64,000 nucleotides of DNA, taken from contig NZ_FAOZ01000007.1 of the NCBI RefSeq assembly GCF_001536285.1, forward strand, positions 261,360 through 325,359, given 5' to 3'. A program made the position numbers and the translations under genes. Positions 20,119 to 63,305 of this stretch are shown here, one piece after another (the first letter of the stretch is position 1; the number at the start of each line of letters is the position of its first letter). The stretch comes from Parafrankia irregularis. Lineage in GTDB: Bacteria; Actinomycetota; Actinomycetes; Frankiales; Frankiaceae. The notes below the pieces were generated by a model. The model saw nothing but the letters and a program-made list of their open reading frames with translations, had not been told where the DNA came from and searched no databases.

Positions 20119-22026
20119 GTGGCAGAAGGCAGCGCGTTGACGGCGTCCGCGCCGGTGCGACCCGGTCGTATGGCCTCCCGTGCGATGGGCGCCCGGCCGC
20201 GGGCCTGGGCAAGGTTCCGGCTTCCGGCCGCCGCGGTGGCCTGCGGCGCGCTGACCGCGGTGCTCGCGCTGGCCGCCGGCTGGCCGTTCTGGCGCGGCGA
20301 GCCCGCGCTCGCGGCCGTCAACGCCTTCGTCGCCGGCGCGTTCGTCAGCTCCGGGGTGCTGCTCGTCGACATCCCGCTGCTGCGCCGTACCGGGGTTCTC
20401 GTGCTGGCCTCCGGCGTCTGCTGGGCCCTCACCTGGCTGTTGTGCCGGGAGAGCGGGCCGCGCCCGGCGCTGGGCCTGTTCATCAACGCGCTGTTCTTCG
20501 TCGCCTTCGCCTGGGGTGTGCTGCTCTACCCGGACGGCTGCCTCACCGGGCGGGCCGACCGGGTCGTCGGCACTCTCACCACCATCGCCTACGGCCCGCT
20601 CGTGGTGTTGTCGATGGTGGTGTCCGAGCCGGAGTGGAACGGCTTCTCGGCGCAGGCGTCCTGGCCGACGCTGTGGGCCGGCCAGGCCTTCTTCGGGTTC
20701 GTCTCCGGGCTGTACGCGGTGATCAATGCGGTGCTGGCGATGGCCTTCGTGGCGCTGCTCGCGCGCCGGTGGAGCAGGCTCTACGGACTGGAACGGTCCG
20801 TCGTCGCACCCGCGCTGGGCACGCTCGGCGTGGTCGCGCTCTGCCTGGCCGCCCTGTCACCGACGCTGTACAACCGGGAACCGGGTCATGTGGCGGAGGG
20901 CGTCGCCTGGCAGGGCGTCGCCCTCGCGGTGCTCCCGCTGGTGCTGGTGAGCTGCGAGCTGTGGCGCGCGGTGGCGGTCGCGACCGCGGCGGACCGGATG
21001 CTGCGCTCCAGCGGCGGCGCCGCGACGGTGACCGTGGTCCGTGACGCCCTGCGCCGCGCCCTGCGTGACGACACCGTCGAGGTGTACTTCTGGCTCGCCG
21101 ACGAGCGGCGTTTCGTCGACATCGCCGGGCAGCCGGCCAGCGGCGCTCCCGCGCTGGGCGCAGTGCCCGGTCCGGGCGCCGTGCCTGGCGCGGGAGCGCT
21201 GGTGCCCGTGCGCCGTGGCGCGCCGGCGCTGTGGTCCCAGCCCGTGATCGCGCCGTCGGGTGAGCTGTTCGCCCTGGTCACGGGCCGGTCGCCGGTGCTG
21301 CGTCGGCACGGCGCGTTCACCGGGGCGGCGCTGCGGACCGCTCGGCTCTCGCTGCAGAACGCCCATCTGCAGGTGACCATCCAGGCGCGGCTCGTCGAGA
21401 CGCGGGCGGCGCGGCGGCGGGTCGAGGAGGCGGAGGCCGCCGAACGCAGTCGCATCGCGCGCGACCTGCACGACGGCGTGCAGCAGCGGCTGCTCGCGCT
21501 GGCGATGCTGGTGAGCGTCGCCGAGTGGTCCGCCGACGACCCGGCGGCCGCCGCCGCGATGTTCGGGGACATCCGGGCCGGCCTGCTCGCGGCGAACGAC
21601 GAGGTCCGCGCCATCGCCCGCGGTCTCGACCCGGAGACCCTGCGCACCGCCGGCCTGGTGGCGGCGGTACGGCAGGCCGCGGCCAGGCTGGCGCTGCCGG
21701 TGGAGGTCGACGTCGCGCTCGGGCGCGGCGGGCCCTTCGGGGACGTCGCCGAGCGCACGGTCTACTTCGCGGTGTCGGAGGCACTGGCCAACGTGGTCAA
21801 GCACGCACGGGCGACGGCCGCCCGGGTGCGGCTCACCGAGCGATCGGGCGGGCTGGTCGCCGAGGTCAGTGACAACGGGTGCGGCGGCGCGGTGGAGCAT
21901 CCGGCCGGCGGGCTGGCCGGCCTGCGTGACCGGGTGGCGGCGGCCGGCGGTGAGGTGCACCTGTCCAGCCCGGCCGGTGGCCCGACCACCGTCCTGGTCA
22001 TCGTGCCCACGGGCGTGGCGTCGTGA
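20119..22026 (+). CDS. Membrane sensor histidine kinase, HisKA_3/NarL class
   Basis: A 635-residue sensor. About six hydrophobic segments fill residues 35-290, followed by a roughly 110-residue linker domain, a HisKA_3 dimerisation helix with ERSRIARDLHDGVQQRL (phospho-acceptor His451) and an HATPase_c domain (about 540-632) with EALANVVKHA and DNGCGG ... GLAGLRDRV. All catalytic boxes are present. Start GTG 20119 was chosen because GGAAGGGA lies 5 bp before it; the frame stays open to 20062. The stop overlaps the start of a degenerate paralogue. No response regulator gene is adjacent. Confidence 0.88.
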   Translation: MAEGSALTASAPVRPGRMASRAMGARPRAWARFRLPAAAVACGALTAVLALAAGWPFWRGEPALAAVNAFVAGAFVSSGVLLVDIPLLRRTGVLVLASGVCWALTWLLCRESGPRPALGLFINALFFVAFAWGVLLYPDGCLTGRADRVVGTLTTIAYGPLVVLSMVVSEPEWNGFSAQASWPTLWAGQAFFGFVSGLYAVINAVLAMAFVALLARRWSRLYGLERSVVAPALGTLGVVALCLAALSPTLYNREPGHVAEGVAWQGVALAVLPLVLVSCELWRAVAVATAADRMLRSSGGAATVTVVRDALRRALRDDTVEVYFWLADERRFVDIAGQPASGAPALGAVPGPGAVPGAGALVPVRRGAPALWSQPVIAPSGELFALVTGRSPVLRRHGAFTGAALRTARLSLQNAHLQVTIQARLVETRAARRRVEEAEAAERSRIARDLHDGVQQRLLALAMLVSVAEWSADDPAAAAAMFGDIRAGLLAANDEVRAIARGLDPETLRTAGLVAAVRQAAARLALPVEVDVALGRGGPFGDVAERTVYFAVSEALANVVKHARATAARVRLTERSGGLVAEVSDNGCGGAVEHPAGGLAGLRDRVAAAGGEVHLSSPAGGPTTVLVIVPTGVAS

Positions 22027-23507
22027 GGGCCGGGCGGGTGCTGCCGCGGGCGTTCGCCATCGGCGGTGTGGTCGGGGTGGCGGTGCTGGGCGCCGGCTGG
22101 CCGTACCTGCACGGCGCCCCGGCACTGGCCGTGGTGAACGTCCTCATCTCCGGTGGGCTCGCGACGGCCGGCACGGCGCTGATGGCCTCGCCGCCGACGC
22201 GGCGCGCGGGTGCCCCGCTGCTCGCCGCCGGCGTGGCCTGGGTCGCGACCTGGGCGATGAGCTGGAACCACACGCTCCTGCCGCTGCTGGGGATCGCCGG
22301 GAACTGCTCCTTCTACGTCCTGTTCGGCGTCGGGCTGCTCGGCTACCCCCACGGGCGGCTGTCCAGCCTGGCGGACCGCGTGGTTGTCGCGCTGGCCGGC
22401 CTCGCCTTCGGGCCGTTGATGGCGGTCAGCGTGCTGACGTCGCGGCCGGAGTGGAACGGCTACGGGCCCGATGTGTGGTGGCCCGGCTGGTTCGCGGACC
22501 TGCCCACGTTCCAGACGATCAGTGACGTCTACCAGGTCGTCAACCCGTTGCTCGCCTGCGGGTTCGCGATCGGGCTGGTCCGCCGGGTGCGCGCGCTGCG
22601 GGGCCCGGAGCGGGCCGCGGCGTCGCTGGTCCTGGGTGCGGTCGCGGTCGCGGGCATCGGCGTGGCCCTGGTGGCGCCGCCCATCGACGTCGACGACCTG
22701 GACGGCGTGATGCGCGGCATCGAGGCGCAGAGCGTCGTCCTCGCCCTGCTCCCGGTGGCGCTGGGGATCGCCGCCGCCCGGCGGGCGCTGGGGGTGGCCA
22801 CCGCCGCCGACCGGGTGCTGCGCCTCGCGGACCCCGCGACGATCGTCAGCGTGCGTGACGCCCTGCGGACCGTGCTGAACGATCCCACCGTGGAGCTCCG
22901 GTTCTGGCTGCCCGACCTGCGGTGCTATGTCGACGTCGACGGCCGCCCGGCGGCTCTCGGCGGTCCGGTGGACATCGGCGGTGTGGTGGATATCGGCGGT
23001 CCGGTGGACGCCGGCAGTGCGGCCGACGCCGGCCGCACTGCCGAGGCCGGCCGTGCGCCCGAACCCGCGTCCGGCGCTCGGTGGACCCGGGAGGTGCTGA
23101 CCCGGGACGGGGCTCCGCTCGCGGTGGTGACCGGTGATCCCGCCCTCGGCCAGCACCGTGCCTTCACCGACGCCGCGTTGCGCGCCGGGCGGCTCGCGCT
23201 GGAGAACGCGCAGCTGCAGGTGGCGGTGCGGGCGCAGCTGGTCGAGACGCACGCGGCCCACCTGCGGGTCGCCGGCGCGAGCGCCGCGCAGCGCCGCCGT
23301 ATGGCACACGACCTGGGCGACGGCATGCAGCGACGGCTCACGGACCTCGCGCGCGTCGCGTCGCGGGCCCCGGACGCCGACCCCGCCGAGACCCGCCTGC
23401 TACTGCGGCACCTGCACGAGGGGCTGCTCGCCGCGAATCAGGAGGTCCGTGACCTCAGCCGCGGACTGCGCGCCGCCGACGCCGTGCCCGGTGGTCCGAC
23501 CTCCTAG
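22023..23507 (+). CDS. Degenerate histidine-kinase paralogue lacking phospho-His and ATPase domain
   Basis: A 494-residue protein resembling its upstream neighbour in layout: hydrophobic segments to about residue 265, the motif VATAADRVLRLADPATIVSVRDALR matching the neighbour's VATAADRM ... VRDALR, and a HisKA_3-like helix. In that helix the DLHDG motif of active kinases reads DLGDG, replacing the phospho-acceptor His by Gly432. The protein then ends about 60 residues later, after LSRGLRAADAV, so there is no HATPase_c domain. It starts at GTG 22023, overlapping the kinase stop by 4 bp. It cannot autophosphorylate by the known mechanism; a heterodimer partner or membrane co-sensor role is inference. 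Confidence 0.82.
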   Translation: MRAGRVLPRAFAIGGVVGVAVLGAGWPYLHGAPALAVVNVLISGGLATAGTALMASPPTRRAGAPLLAAGVAWVATWAMSWNHTLLPLLGIAGNCSFYVLFGVGLLGYPHGRLSSLADRVVVALAGLAFGPLMAVSVLTSRPEWNGYGPDVWWPGWFADLPTFQTISDVYQVVNPLLACGFAIGLVRRVRALRGPERAAASLVLGAVAVAGIGVALVAPPIDVDDLDGVMRGIEAQSVVLALLPVALGIAAARRALGVATAADRVLRLADPATIVSVRDALRTVLNDPTVELRFWLPDLRCYVDVDGRPAALGGPVDIGGVVDIGGPVDAGSAADAGRTAEAGRAPEPASGARWTREVLTRDGAPLAVVTGDPALGQHRAFTDAALRAGRLALENAQLQVAVRAQLVETHAAHLRVAGASAAQRRRMAHDLGDGMQRRLTDLARVASRAPDADPAETRLLLRHLHEGLLAANQEVRDLSRGLRAADAVPGGPTS

Positions 23508-23662: not shown

Positions 23663-25282
23663 TCAACCACCCGGCGAGGCGCCGGCGTCGTCCGGGTGCC
23701 CGGAGCCGGCCGCCGCGGCGCCGTCGTGGGCGGCCGCTTCGCGGTGCGCAGGCGTGGTTCCGTCCGCGGCGGGCGGCTGCCCGGGAACCTTTCTGCCGGC
23801 GGGTAGGTCGGCTGCCGGCGGCATCGCGTCGCCGACCCGGAGGGGCCGGGTGGCCAGCACGATCAGGAAGATGGCGGCGACCAGGAAGGCGCCGACGAGG
23901 AACGCCCGGGCCACGCCGTGGGCGAGCACGTAGCGGGCCGCGTCGGCCGTCGAGGATCCCGCGGGCACGTCTGCCCGGGAATGCCGGCTGGCCGTCCCGA
24001 ACACCGTGACGAGCACCGCCACGCCCAGCGCCCCACCGACCTGCTGGACGGTGACCATCATGCTGGCCGCCGCGCCGGACAGCTTCGGTGGCACCCCGGC
24101 GACGAGGCTCACGCTCAACGGCACGAACAGCAGTCCGAGCCCGAAGCCGAACATCAGCAGCGGGCCGAGCATGATCGAAACATAGCTGGAGTCTGTCGAG
24201 ACCTGTGACAGCCAGGACATGCCGCCGGTGCCGAGTGCGGCGCCGACGAGCATCAGCGGCTTCGGGCCGAACCTCGGCAGCAGCTTCGATGCCCGCGATG
24301 CCGAGACCAGGATGCCCAGCGACAGTGGGAGGAACGCGAGCCCGGCCCGCAGGGCGCTGAATCGGAGGATCTCCTGGAGGACCTGCGTCCCGAAGAAGAA
24401 CATGCTCAGCATGCTGCCCGTCAACAGCAGCATGAGCAGATAGCTCCGAACCCGGTGCGGCTCGGTGACCAGCTGCCGCGGGACGACGGGCTGCGCCGCC
24501 CGCGACTCGATGACGCCGAACGCGGCCAGTGCCACCACGGCCAGCCCGAACGCCACTTGGGCCTGGCTGTCGCTCCAGCCGTCCGAGGACGCCCGCAGGA
24601 AGCCGTAGACCAGCGACGCGAGGCCGATGACCGACGCCAGCGCACCGGCGGCGTCGAAGCGGCCCTGCTGGCGCGGCGGCGTCCGCAGCACCCGCGGCGC
24701 CAGCAGCACGATGGCGGCGCCGAACGGGACGTTGATGAACATCACCCACCGCCAGGACAGCCAGGTGGTGAGCATGCCGCCGACGATCAGGCCGATCGAG
24801 CCGCCGACGCCGGAGACCGCCGCCCACGCGCCCATCGCTTTCGTCCTGGCGGGCCCCTCGGGGAAGTTCGCCGCGATGAGGGCCAGCGCGTTCGGCGACG
24901 CGCAGGCCGCGCCGACACCCTGCCCGACCCGCGCGGCGACGAGCATCCACGGCTCGGTGGACAGGCCGCCGAGCAGCGAGGCGACGGTGAACAGGACGAT
25001 CCCGCCGACGAGGGTGTTGCGCCGGCCGAGAATGTCACCGGTGCGCCCGCCCAGCAGCAGCAGGCCGCCGTAGGCGAGGGTGTAGGCGTTGATCACCCAG
25101 GCCAGGTTGGTGGTGGAGAAGTACAGGGTCTGCTGTATGTGGGGGAGCGCCACGTTCACGATCGTGATGTCGAGAACCAGCATGAGCTGGCAGGACACGA
25201 TCGTGAGTAGCGCGACGCGGGCCCGCCTGGCCTCGTGGGGCGGCGGCTCGGTGGCGGTCGCGCCCAGGGGCGACGAGGACAT
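23663..25282 (-). CDS. MFS multidrug efflux transporter, DHA2 (EmrB/QacA) type
   Basis: A 539-residue exporter with about 14 hydrophobic segments. Family signatures are LDITIVNVALPHI in the first segment, GRTGDILGRRN in the loop between segments 2 and 3, RVGQGVGAACASPNALALI (motif C-like region) and WRWVMFINVPFG. The last 60 residues are hydrophilic Ala/Pro-rich. ATG 25282 has GGGAGG upstream. It is divergent from a TetR-family gene, the usual local repressor arrangement. Substrate unknown. Confidence 0.92.
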   Translation of the reverse strand: MSSSPLGATATEPPPHEARRARVALLTIVSCQLMLVLDITIVNVALPHIQQTLYFSTTNLAWVINAYTLAYGGLLLLGGRTGDILGRRNTLVGGIVLFTVASLLGGLSTEPWMLVAARVGQGVGAACASPNALALIAANFPEGPARTKAMGAWAAVSGVGGSIGLIVGGMLTTWLSWRWVMFINVPFGAAIVLLAPRVLRTPPRQQGRFDAAGALASVIGLASLVYGFLRASSDGWSDSQAQVAFGLAVVALAAFGVIESRAAQPVVPRQLVTEPHRVRSYLLMLLLTGSMLSMFFFGTQVLQEILRFSALRAGLAFLPLSLGILVSASRASKLLPRFGPKPLMLVGAALGTGGMSWLSQVSTDSSYVSIMLGPLLMFGFGLGLLFVPLSVSLVAGVPPKLSGAAASMMVTVQQVGGALGVAVLVTVFGTASRHSRADVPAGSSTADAARYVLAHGVARAFLVGAFLVAAIFLIVLATRPLRVGDAMPPAADLPAGRKVPGQPPAADGTTPAHREAAAHDGAAAAGSGHPDDAGASPGG

Positions 25283-25304
25283 GGGGGCCTCCCGGCCGGG
25301 CTAA

Positions 25305-25320
25305 GGAACTTTTTCGTACC
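25305..25320. promoter_or_regulatory. Candidate operator between the MFS pump and TetR genes
   Basis: The sequence GGAAC-TTTTTC-GTACC is an imperfect dyad (4 of 5 arm positions pair) lying 23 bp upstream of the pump start in an AT-rich stretch. Position and symmetry fit a TetR-family operator; no other evidence supports it. Confidence 0.35.
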
Positions 25321-25570
25321 CTAAACGATGCTAGCGCCGGACCGGCTACCGAAGGTCACACCGTGTGTGTCGGGCACTCCGACCGGGCGTGCTCGGTGAG
25401 GATCGCGTGGCGGCGGCCCGGTCGCCTTCCGTCGCACTGTCGAGCGCGCAGGTAGCCGGTGAGGCACCGATGGCGAGCCGTAACCGGCGGACGCGCCGGG
25501 CGCCAGCTGCCCGCGCCGGTACGCTCGTGGTCACGGCCCGACTGCGGCCCGCGGACGGAGGCGGAAGATC

Positions 25571-26233
25571 ATGGTGATCCCGCCCGACGCAGCCGCCCAG
25601 GCCCGCGCGAGCACCCGCTCGGGCGGAAATGACGCTGTGACCCGCCGCCGGCACGGTGACGCGCTGCGCCGGGCGATCTACGACGCGGTCTTCGACCAGC
25701 TGCGCACCACCGGCTACGCGAACCTCACGATGGACCGGGTCGCCGCCGCCGCCCACACCTCGAAGGCGGTGCTGTACCGCCGGTGGGATTCCAAGGAGGC
25801 CCTGGTCGGCGAGGCGCTGAGGCACACGCTGCCCGCACCGGCGGACGTGCCGCTCACCGGCGACCTGCGCACCGACATCCTCGCGCTGCTGCGCTGCGTG
25901 CAGATGGCGTTCCTCTCCACCCGCGGCACGGCGTTCCAGCTCGTCTCCGCCGAGGCCGGCTGCGACCGTCCGCTGATCCGCCAGTCGATCATCGATCACG
26001 TGGTCGAGCCGTGCATCGGGCTCATCCTGACGGTGCTGCGCCAGGCGGCCGAGCGCGGCGAGGTGCCGCCGGCGGCGGCGAGTGAAATGGTGGCGGCCAG
26101 TGGCCCGGCGATGCTGGTGCAGTACTCGCTGGTCCGTGAGCCGATGGTGCCGGACGAGTTCGTCGCCGCGGTGGTCGACCAGATCGTCGTCCCCCTCGCC
26201 ACGGCCACCCGCACCGGGCCGGCACCGGCCTAG
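25571..26233 (+). CDS. TetR/AcrR-family transcriptional regulator
   Basis: A 220-residue regulator. The N-terminal helix-turn-helix is seen in AIYDAVFDQLRTTGYANLTMDRVAAAAHTSKAVLYRRWDSKEALV (about residues 35-80), with the typical YRRW recognition helix. The C-terminal ligand domain resembles the TetR_C group with LVQYSLVREPMV. ATG 25571 is preceded by GGAGGCGGAAG. It is divergent from the DHA2 pump at 23663 with 288 bp between them, so it probably represses that pump and itself. Confidence 0.9.
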   Translation: MVIPPDAAAQARASTRSGGNDAVTRRRHGDALRRAIYDAVFDQLRTTGYANLTMDRVAAAAHTSKAVLYRRWDSKEALVGEALRHTLPAPADVPLTGDLRTDILALLRCVQMAFLSTRGTAFQLVSAEAGCDRPLIRQSIIDHVVEPCIGLILTVLRQAAERGEVPPAAASEMVAASGPAMLVQYSLVREPMVPDEFVAAVVDQIVVPLATATRTGPAPA

Positions 26234-26284
26234 CTGGGCACGACCGGCCCACCGGCGGGCTCGCCGGTGGCAGTCTCATGCGTT

Positions 26285-62456: not shown

Positions 62457-63305
62457 TCACGGCAGCAGGCTGGAGCGGCGCGCGACATTCACCGCCGCGG
62501 TGCGGTTGTGCACACCGAGCTTGTTCATGATGCTGCGCAGATACGCCTTCACCGTCTCCGGGCTGACCGCGAGCCGGCGGGCCGTCTCGGCGTTGGACAT
62601 ACCCTCCGCGACGAGCCGCAGGACGTCGAGCTCACGCGGGGACAGCCCGAACGGCTGGGCGCGGGTCGGCGGCGCGGTGTCGGGGAACAGGTCCTCCAAC
62701 AGGTCGCGTACCGCGATGATCCGCTCCCGCAGCGCCTGGTCGCTGGTCTGGTAGGTCAGCTCCTCCAGCTCGGAGTCGACCCGGCACAGCACCCGCAGCC
62801 GGGACGCGCCCGGGGTGGCCGCGGCGCCGTCCGCCCGGGCGGTCGTCGTGCGATCGGCCAGCATGGCCTCGAACCGGCGGGCGACACCGAGCGCGGTCTC
62901 CACCGCGGCCGGCGGCACCGGATTGTCGGCCCGCACCCCGCAGTACAGCACCGCGTGCACGATGCCGCCGGCGCGCACCGGTACGGCGACCACCGAGGAG
63001 ATGTCCTCACCCAGGACAGCCCAGTCGCGCTGGTCCTCGGTGTAGCGCGGGCGGGTGCCCGCGTCGATCACGACGGGCCGGCCCAGGGCCACCACCCGTC
63101 CGCCCACGCCGTGGCCCGGCGGCAGGGACATTCCGCGCAACGCGTTCGTGCGGTTCCCGTCGAGCGCGCTGATGGTCAGGTAGCGCGAGCGGGGGTCGAC
63201 CGATCCGCCATAGGCCAGATCGGCGCCGGTACGGGCGCGCAGCCGGGTGACGGCCCGAGGCAGCATCGCCTCGACCGAGCAGCCATCGGTAGTGCCCGAT
63301 GTCAT
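62457..63305 (-). CDS. LuxR-family regulator with GAF domain
   Basis: A 282-residue regulator. The N-terminal 150 residues look like a GAF sensor (ALRGMSLPPGHGVGGRVVALGRPVVI, SSVVAVPVRAGGIVHAVLYCGVR). The C-terminal LuxR helix-turn-helix is complete: LSPRELDVLRLVAEGMSNAETARRLAVSPETVKAYLRSIMNKLGVHNRTAAV. There is no receiver domain, so it is not a two-component response regulator. ATG 63305. Many actinobacterial members control degradation of aromatic or other compounds; the target here is unknown. Confidence 0.9.
   Translation of the reverse strand: MTSGTTDGCSVEAMLPRAVTRLRARTGADLAYGGSVDPRSRYLTISALDGNRTNALRGMSLPPGHGVGGRVVALGRPVVIDAGTRPRYTEDQRDWAVLGEDISSVVAVPVRAGGIVHAVLYCGVRADNPVPPAAVETALGVARRFEAMLADRTTTARADGAAATPGASRLRVLCRVDSELEELTYQTSDQALRERIIAVRDLLEDLFPDTAPPTRAQPFGLSPRELDVLRLVAEGMSNAETARRLAVSPETVKAYLRSIMNKLGVHNRTAAVNVARRSSLLP

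Follow-up and report, generated by a model that had tools for sequence, protein, structure and literature searches.

A truncated sensor kinase twin in Parafrankia that is catalytically dead by sequence yet maintained by selection

We analyzed a 64,000-nucleotide stretch of contig NZ_FAOZ01000007.1 of Parafrankia irregularis (the window), in which the gene for a membrane sensor histidine kinase, here called K1, overlaps the gene for a shorter paralog, here called K2. Judged by its sequence, K2 is catalytically dead, and yet it is maintained by selection. It has kept the membrane part and the DHp hairpin of a sensor kinase, has glycine in place of the phospho-acceptor histidine, and lacks the ATPase domain. 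K2 probably tunes K1 rather than acting as an enzyme. With moderate confidence, we propose that K2 forms pairs with K1 as a pseudokinase sensor subunit, by which K1 is damped or gated; both the pairing and the sign of the effect are deduced. A preliminary description of this DNA had presented K2 as a catalytically dead paralog coupled to an active kinase; our results confirm its observation and support its interpretation in part.

K1 is a complete kinase and K2 is its truncated twin

K1 (20119..22026, forward strand; 635 amino acids) is a membrane sensor histidine kinase of the active type. Its start is a chosen GTG, common to the sister genome (G001), and in-frame starts exist further upstream. 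The protein scored 53.6 bits for HisKA_3 (Pfam cut-off, 24 bits) and 33.0 bits for HATPase_c, both above cut-off. Its phospho-acceptor, His451 (codon CAC; 21469..21471, forward strand), lies in RIARDLHDGVQQRL, and its ATPase domain, defined by the HATPase_c match (21754..22008, forward strand), has the N, G1 and G2 boxes. With a histidine-bearing HisKA_3 domain followed by HATPase_c, K1 is a NarL/DesK-type (HisKA_3) kinase, and the family profile A1 matched DesK structures (E = 1.9e-20).

K2 (22023..23507, forward strand; 494 amino acids) has a GTG start that falls within the last sense codon of K1, so that the K1 stop and the K2 start overlap by the four bases GTGA (22023..22026, forward strand). 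The two proteins are 42% identical over 461 columns (E = 1e-96); this identity and the structural model described below bear out the earlier claim that K2 retains the membrane part and DHp helix of its neighbor. K2 has none of the three marks of a NarL/DesK-type kinase. Its HisKA_3 score (14.9 bits) is below the cut-off, it had no match to the HATPase profile, and Gly432 (codon GGC; 23316..23318, forward strand) occupies the phospho-acceptor position. The loss of the histidine and of the ATPase domain, both reported in the preliminary description, therefore stand. Because the K1 and K2 codons at this position differ by two bases, and because K2 of G001 also has glycine, a sequencing error at Gly432 is unlikely.

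The 4-bp overlap had been taken to imply equimolar synthesis of the two proteins. The overlap is there, and equimolar synthesis is an overstatement, since an overlap does not imply it. What the overlap can support is translational coupling of K2 to K1, which is made likely by the weakness (by eye) of the Shine-Dalgarno-like sequence ahead of K2.

We modeled K2 with AlphaFold2, using 29 sequences from the window and the related loci (predicted local distance difference test score [pLDDT], 86.2; predicted template modeling score, 0.76). The model has a membrane domain of eight predicted helices (residues 3-268; 22029..22826, forward strand; ten-residue mean pLDDT, 78-97), a GAF-like domain (residues 274-388; 22842..23186, forward strand), and a signaling helix with the DHp hairpin, made up of one long helix (residues 390-447) and the second DHp helix (residues 454-487; both together, 23190..23483, forward strand). 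The hairpin contains the sub-threshold HisKA_3 match (residues 424-485) and has ten-residue pLDDT values of 80-94 up to residue 480 and lower values beyond. In the model, K2 ends after the second DHp helix. The GAF-like domain, which is predicted to sit between the membrane part and the DHp hairpin, was not in the preliminary description; the label was given by eye, there being no Pfam match. It has a low-confidence loop at residues 315-347. A low-complexity run of Asp, Ile, Gly and Ala occupies residues 314-353 (22962-23081) in this loop and is mostly gone in three other genomes of the genus (G001, G003 and G005).

Foldseek with the K2 model gave nothing at E ≤ 0.001, phmmer against the PDB gave nothing useful, and an NCBIfam scan left K2 unmatched. 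VIA-align gave Z scores of up to 14.4 with seven-helix receptors and rhodopsins; this likeness may reflect merely a common helical-bundle arrangement, and we make no claim from it.

The truncation of K2 is old within the genus

Our sample of the genus comprised six genomes: that of the window (G000; 9.5 Mb, 82 contigs), its sister G001, G002 (P. colletiae), G003, G004 and G005. A search for the gene pair in relatives, suggested in the preliminary description, found it in all six, in the interval from metX to a convergent MFS transporter gene with MarR, with extra genes intervening in places. The ATPase domain is gone from all six K2 copies, each of which stops soon after the second DHp helix, and the five intact copies, from separate assemblies, end at about the same point. 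A full-length second kinase, which would have marked K2 as a recent truncation, was found in none of the six genomes. Full-length second kinases do occur in the same family, in G014 and G008; the G014 pair, with that of G025, belongs to another duplication (see below). By these sequences, the truncation is old within the genus, not recent.

The phospho-acceptor position varies among the K2 copies, being Gly in the window and G001, His in G002 and G004, Asn in G003 and Glu in G005. These states require three changes on the tree, which indicates that the histidine was lost at least twice independently, after the ATPase domain had gone. The HDxxxQ motif has a Gln that serves phosphatase activity; this residue is Arg in five of the six copies and is kept in G001. 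The HisKA_3 match was above the cut-off in G002 (24.5 bits) and absent in G005.

K1 and K2 are inherited together. Their trees have the same branching, (G003,G004),(G002,(G005,(window,G001))), and a 4-bp overlap of the K1 stop with a K2 start is possible in all five intact pairs (GTGA in four, ATGA in one); in the window and G001 the overlapping start is the sole candidate. The locus is broken in G004: the K1 match there starts from residue 187 and is without an ATPase domain, and K2 carries a frameshift. This joint loss, a single case, fits a joint function. Among 148 genomes of the class, K2 had matches in 11, eight of them within the same family; the matches in the three genomes outside the family span only residues from 348 on.

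K2 is under purifying selection

We estimated the ratio of nonsynonymous to synonymous substitution rates (dN/dS, or omega) with pairwise codon models for the five intact K2 copies (ten comparisons). In all ten, omega was between 0.087 and 0.164, with twice the difference in log likelihood from omega = 1 being 92-201, so the purifying selection that the preliminary description had proposed to look for is present. The corresponding range for K1 was 0.073-0.160. The closest pair, the window and G001, had dN of 0.037 and dS of 0.34 for K2; dS was 1.27-2.84 in all other comparisons. On these values, together with the presence of the pair in all six genomes, we reject a recent truncation or a pseudogene.

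Constraint is redistributed among the domains of K2 relative to K1, as estimated from these alignments. Rough median omegas for K2 were 0.19 (membrane), 0.05 (GAF-like, the lowest of its domains) and 0.12 (DHp); those for K1 were 0.10 (membrane), 0.16 (GAF-like), 0.03 (DHp) and 0.09 (ATPase). Derived from a kinase, without the catalytic residues, and maintained as a protein by selection, K2 is probably a pseudo-histidine-kinase regulator of the RetS, DivL and ChrS_CA-fs kind.

K1 and K2 probably arose by their own duplication

In a tree of 40 rows, the K1 sequences formed one clade and the K2 sequences another (support of 100/100 for each), and K1 and K2 together formed one clade (100/99). The sister group (97/90) consisted of the A and B kinases of tandem pairs in G014 and G025 together with a Parafrankia kinase that we call s. 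We used the approximately unbiased (AU) test for two other placements, with groups that were named only after the tree was seen and that concern the kinases of G014 and G025. A tree joining K2 with the B kinases as orthologs was rejected (p = 0.00017), as was a tree joining K2 with the A and s kinases (p = 2.7e-05). These rejections indicate that K1/K2 and A/B go back to separate duplications, unless K1 and K2 were homogenized by gene conversion, which could mimic a late duplication.

Related tandem pairs divide the catalytic parts between two proteins

Tandem pairs were taken from 58 genomes among the matches listed, so the counts of pairs are lower bounds. At least three pairs are complementary: those of G014 (L075:6749-10680), G008 (L078:4471-9724) and G025 (L079:5755-8789). 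By domain matches and motifs, HisKA_3 is on protein A only and HATPase_c on protein B only in all three. The A proteins keep the H-box and have mostly lost the N, G1 and G2 boxes; the B proteins keep these boxes and have Ala, Glu or Leu in place of the histidine. Most of the membrane domain is missing from B of G025. A NarL-type regulator adjoins each of the three pairs. With the acceptor histidine and the ATPase predicted on different proteins, these pairs have the makeup of split histidine kinases.

Also related to these membrane sensor kinases is the s kinase (L094:4584-6377; L095:4245-6161; L076:5677-7506; L077:5250-7211), in which neither catalytic part survives: the His and the ATPase motifs are lost in all four genomes that have it (G002-G005). 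All 16 other family kinases in our motif table for which no tandem partner was found retain both the His and the ATPase parts. That count leaves out L036 and the G014 kinase x1, includes L049, L050, L056 and L006 irrespective of their neighbors, and comes from a table without 14 wrongly framed or fragmentary open reading frames. L036 had looked like a kinase without an ATPase; its gene is interrupted by Ns and the ATPase lies in a different frame, and it was removed from the second tree.

A further locus in G014 (L093:4026-8309) has two convergent kinases, x1 and x2. The x2 kinase lacks the His and keeps the ATPase (HATPase above and HisKA_3 below cut-off), and x1 has the reverse scores (HisKA_3 above and HATPase below). 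At the very end of x1, and in a partial regulator match next to it, the reading frame seems disturbed. We did not count x1/x2 as a fourth complementary pair, since x1 retains most of the ATPase motifs.

A candidate response regulator lies elsewhere in the genome

Response regulators were sought by tblastn with two family regulators as queries, a regular expression for the receiver domain having been dropped because it missed known regulators. By this search, no response regulator adjoins K1/K2 in the window or in loci L068-L074, and the pair does not form an operon with a regulator of its own. The sole match in the window was of helix-turn-helix length (62517-62669).

A NarL-type regulator on contig C16, here RR1, is 60-65% identical to the regulator beside the A/B pair of G014. 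It is present in all six genomes of the genus and is adjoined in all six by a second regulator, RR2. The s kinase lies between the divergent NarL-type RR1 and RR2 in four of the six and is gone from G000 and G001, where RR1 and RR2 persist; in all six, the RR1 locus is without a working kinase. RR1 is probably the best candidate for the target of K1. Phosphorylation of RR1 by K1 is suggested by this kinship and by orphan status on both sides, RR1 being without a kinase and K1/K2 without a regulator. RR2 of the window's genome (L092:6419-7048), the one RR2 scanned, has a receiver domain and no recognized DNA-binding domain.

Relation to known systems

The nearest analog of K1/K2 is in Corynebacterium glutamicum, where ChrS_CA-fs, a ChrS truncated after the DHp with loss of the ATPase domain, altered signaling through the intact kinase HrrS, its own His being dispensable; native ChrS and HrrS heterodimerized (PMC9491836). 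As with K1/K2, these are paralogous actinobacterial sensor kinases, one of which lacks the ATPase domain after the DHp; unlike K1/K2, ChrS_CA-fs came from laboratory evolution and the two kinases belong to separate systems (PMC9491836). In Parafrankia the loss is old, natural and genus-wide, in one overlapping gene pair. RetS of Pseudomonas aeruginosa, whose ATPase domain is dead, inhibits GacS autophosphorylation, with damping as its third mechanism (PMC5992135). The damping of K1 that we propose for K2 would be analogous, with the difference that RetS keeps its His and phosphatase motif, has receiver domains, belongs to another class and is not a tandem twin (PMC5992135).

Two further types of system help to place the pair. 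DivL of Caulobacter belongs to another family than K2, keeps an ATPase-like domain and is not known to be a duplicate of CckA. Like K2 it is of the pseudo-histidine kinase type, controlling CckA with no need of its own ATPase or acceptor residue (PMC9491836). Further papers on this system are PMC4211667, PMC5361649 and PMC9430884.

CheA3/CheA4 and Rv0600c/Rv0601c are split histidine kinases, in which kinase functions are shared by two proteins, and the motif pattern of the G014, G008 and G025 pairs agrees with this type. K1/K2 does not, since K1 has both the His and the ATPase. Hik36-Hik43 is likewise described as a split histidine kinase (PMC7656254), and Rv0600c/Rv0601c is named with TcrA (PMC9274095).

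K1/K2 fits, as far as sequence can tell, a natural, genus-wide and overlapping instance of the pseudo-histidine-kinase subunit type. Among the matches listed, the pair was not described in the titles and abstract openings of open-licence literature on tandem, split or pseudo histidine kinases or on Frankia two-component systems. By our reading of the cited papers, knowledge of pseudo-histidine kinases comes mostly from single cases. The six Parafrankia species form a graded natural series, with the ATPase gone throughout, the His kept or replaced by Gly, Asn or Glu, and one locus decaying; at related loci the outcome is the reverse, with split pairs that complement each other. Together they let biochemistry ask why dead sensor twins persist, whether signaling in heterodimers of this kinase type is in cis or in trans, and in what order catalytic functions are lost.

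A proposed role for K2

The comparisons support the following history. A duplication gave rise to K1 and K2; by the time the genus radiated K2 had already lost its ATPase domain, and the acceptor His was lost afterwards, at least twice; the remainder of K2 stayed under purifying selection, and the two genes remained adjacent and were inherited together. Beyond this, we propose that K2 is made together with K1, would use the DHp hairpin to pair with it, and may relay its own membrane and GAF signal to K1. If phosphorylation is in trans, as it was in an engineered DesK heterodimer (PMC8301901), a K1:K2 dimer of the window species would have no acceptor for the ATPase of K1 and no ATPase for the His of K1. 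Because K2 offers neither, such a dimer could not autophosphorylate, and K2 would damp K1 by withdrawing it from active K1:K1 dimers, gated by the signal that K2 receives. Output would probably be through the orphan NarL-type regulator RR1 on contig C16. The K2 of P. colletiae still has its His and could accept a phosphate from K1. Under cis phosphorylation, the role of K2 would instead be that of an allosteric input. A trans mechanism for K1/K2 is favored by the complementary A/B pairs, for which, if they are active, no other mechanism is possible.

Several points weigh against damping through a K1:K2 dimer. We infer the contact between K1 and K2 from sequence, and K1 is complete on its own and could function without K2. 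With cis phosphorylation, half of the activity would remain in a K1:K2 dimer, and the effect of K2 could be stimulatory. The DHp is less constrained in K2 than in K1, as expected for lost catalysis and also for weaker pairing, and the high dS makes the single-domain omegas rough, some being 0.0. The overlap hinges on the choice of start in G002, G003 and G005, which have nearer downstream K2 starts. In the ChrS study, a two-hybrid test of truncated ChrS against HrrS was negative, though genetics showed the importance of the truncated protein (PMC9491836).

Other roles for K2 seem to us less probable, to different degrees. It could be an activating or signal-integrating allosteric partner, with K1 autophosphorylating in cis and remaining active within K1:K2 while K2 adds a second input. 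We consider this unlikely but worth keeping in view, since the membrane and GAF-like parts of K2 are still under selection and since the engineered DesK heterodimer, in which one subunit has no His, showed activity that followed the signal sensed by this His-less subunit (PMC8301901). In that heterodimer, however, the partner was phosphorylated in trans and the His-less subunit retained a catalytic domain, which K2 does not have (PMC8301901), and the three complementary pairs, if active, again point to trans. Somewhat less likely still is a role for K2 independent of K1, either as a homodimer or together with a different kinase or regulator, the overlap serving co-expression only. Each genome of the genus has further kinases of the K1/K2 family that might serve as partners, and binding to K1 is itself a deduction; against this, K2 adjoins K1 in every genome, the trees are congruent, the overlap is possible in every intact pair, and both genes are broken in G004.

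We give very little credence to two remaining accounts. One is that K2 is a phospho-acceptor subunit, as in a split kinase, with its His phosphorylated by the ATPase of K1. The His is still present in G002, where HisKA_3 reaches 24.5 bits, and in the broken K2 of G004, and this may have been the ancestral state; the account fails for the window, G001, G003 and G005, where the residue is Gly, Gly, Asn and Glu. It is just as improbable that K2 is a decaying duplicate or an artifact of sequencing or assembly. The sub-threshold HisKA_3 match and the broken copy in G004 would suit decay, but omega = 1 is strongly rejected, five intact copies from separate assemblies share about the same end point, and the change from His to a Gly common to the window and G001 takes two bases.

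A broader generalization is doubtful, and we offer it tentatively. Frankiaceae may repeatedly turn tandem-duplicated eight-helix sensor kinases into obligate heterodimers, through at least two separate duplications followed either by a division of labor, with His and ATPase on different twins, or by one twin becoming non-catalytic (K2), with the lone s kinase having lost the function of both parts. For Parafrankia this might mean a dispersed network, with K1/K2 driving the orphan RR1 and RR2 elsewhere and the dead s between these regulators in four of the six species and gone in two. The A kinase was found in only two of eight genomes of the genus of G014 (G014 and G025), which counts against a wide spread of complementary pairs.

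Genes downstream of K2

In the window, a stretch with an MFS transporter gene and a TetR gene (23663-26233) separates K2 from the conserved gene at 26267, which is followed by MFS2/MarR. This stretch is missing in G001; either it was inserted in the lineage of the window or it was lost in that of G001.

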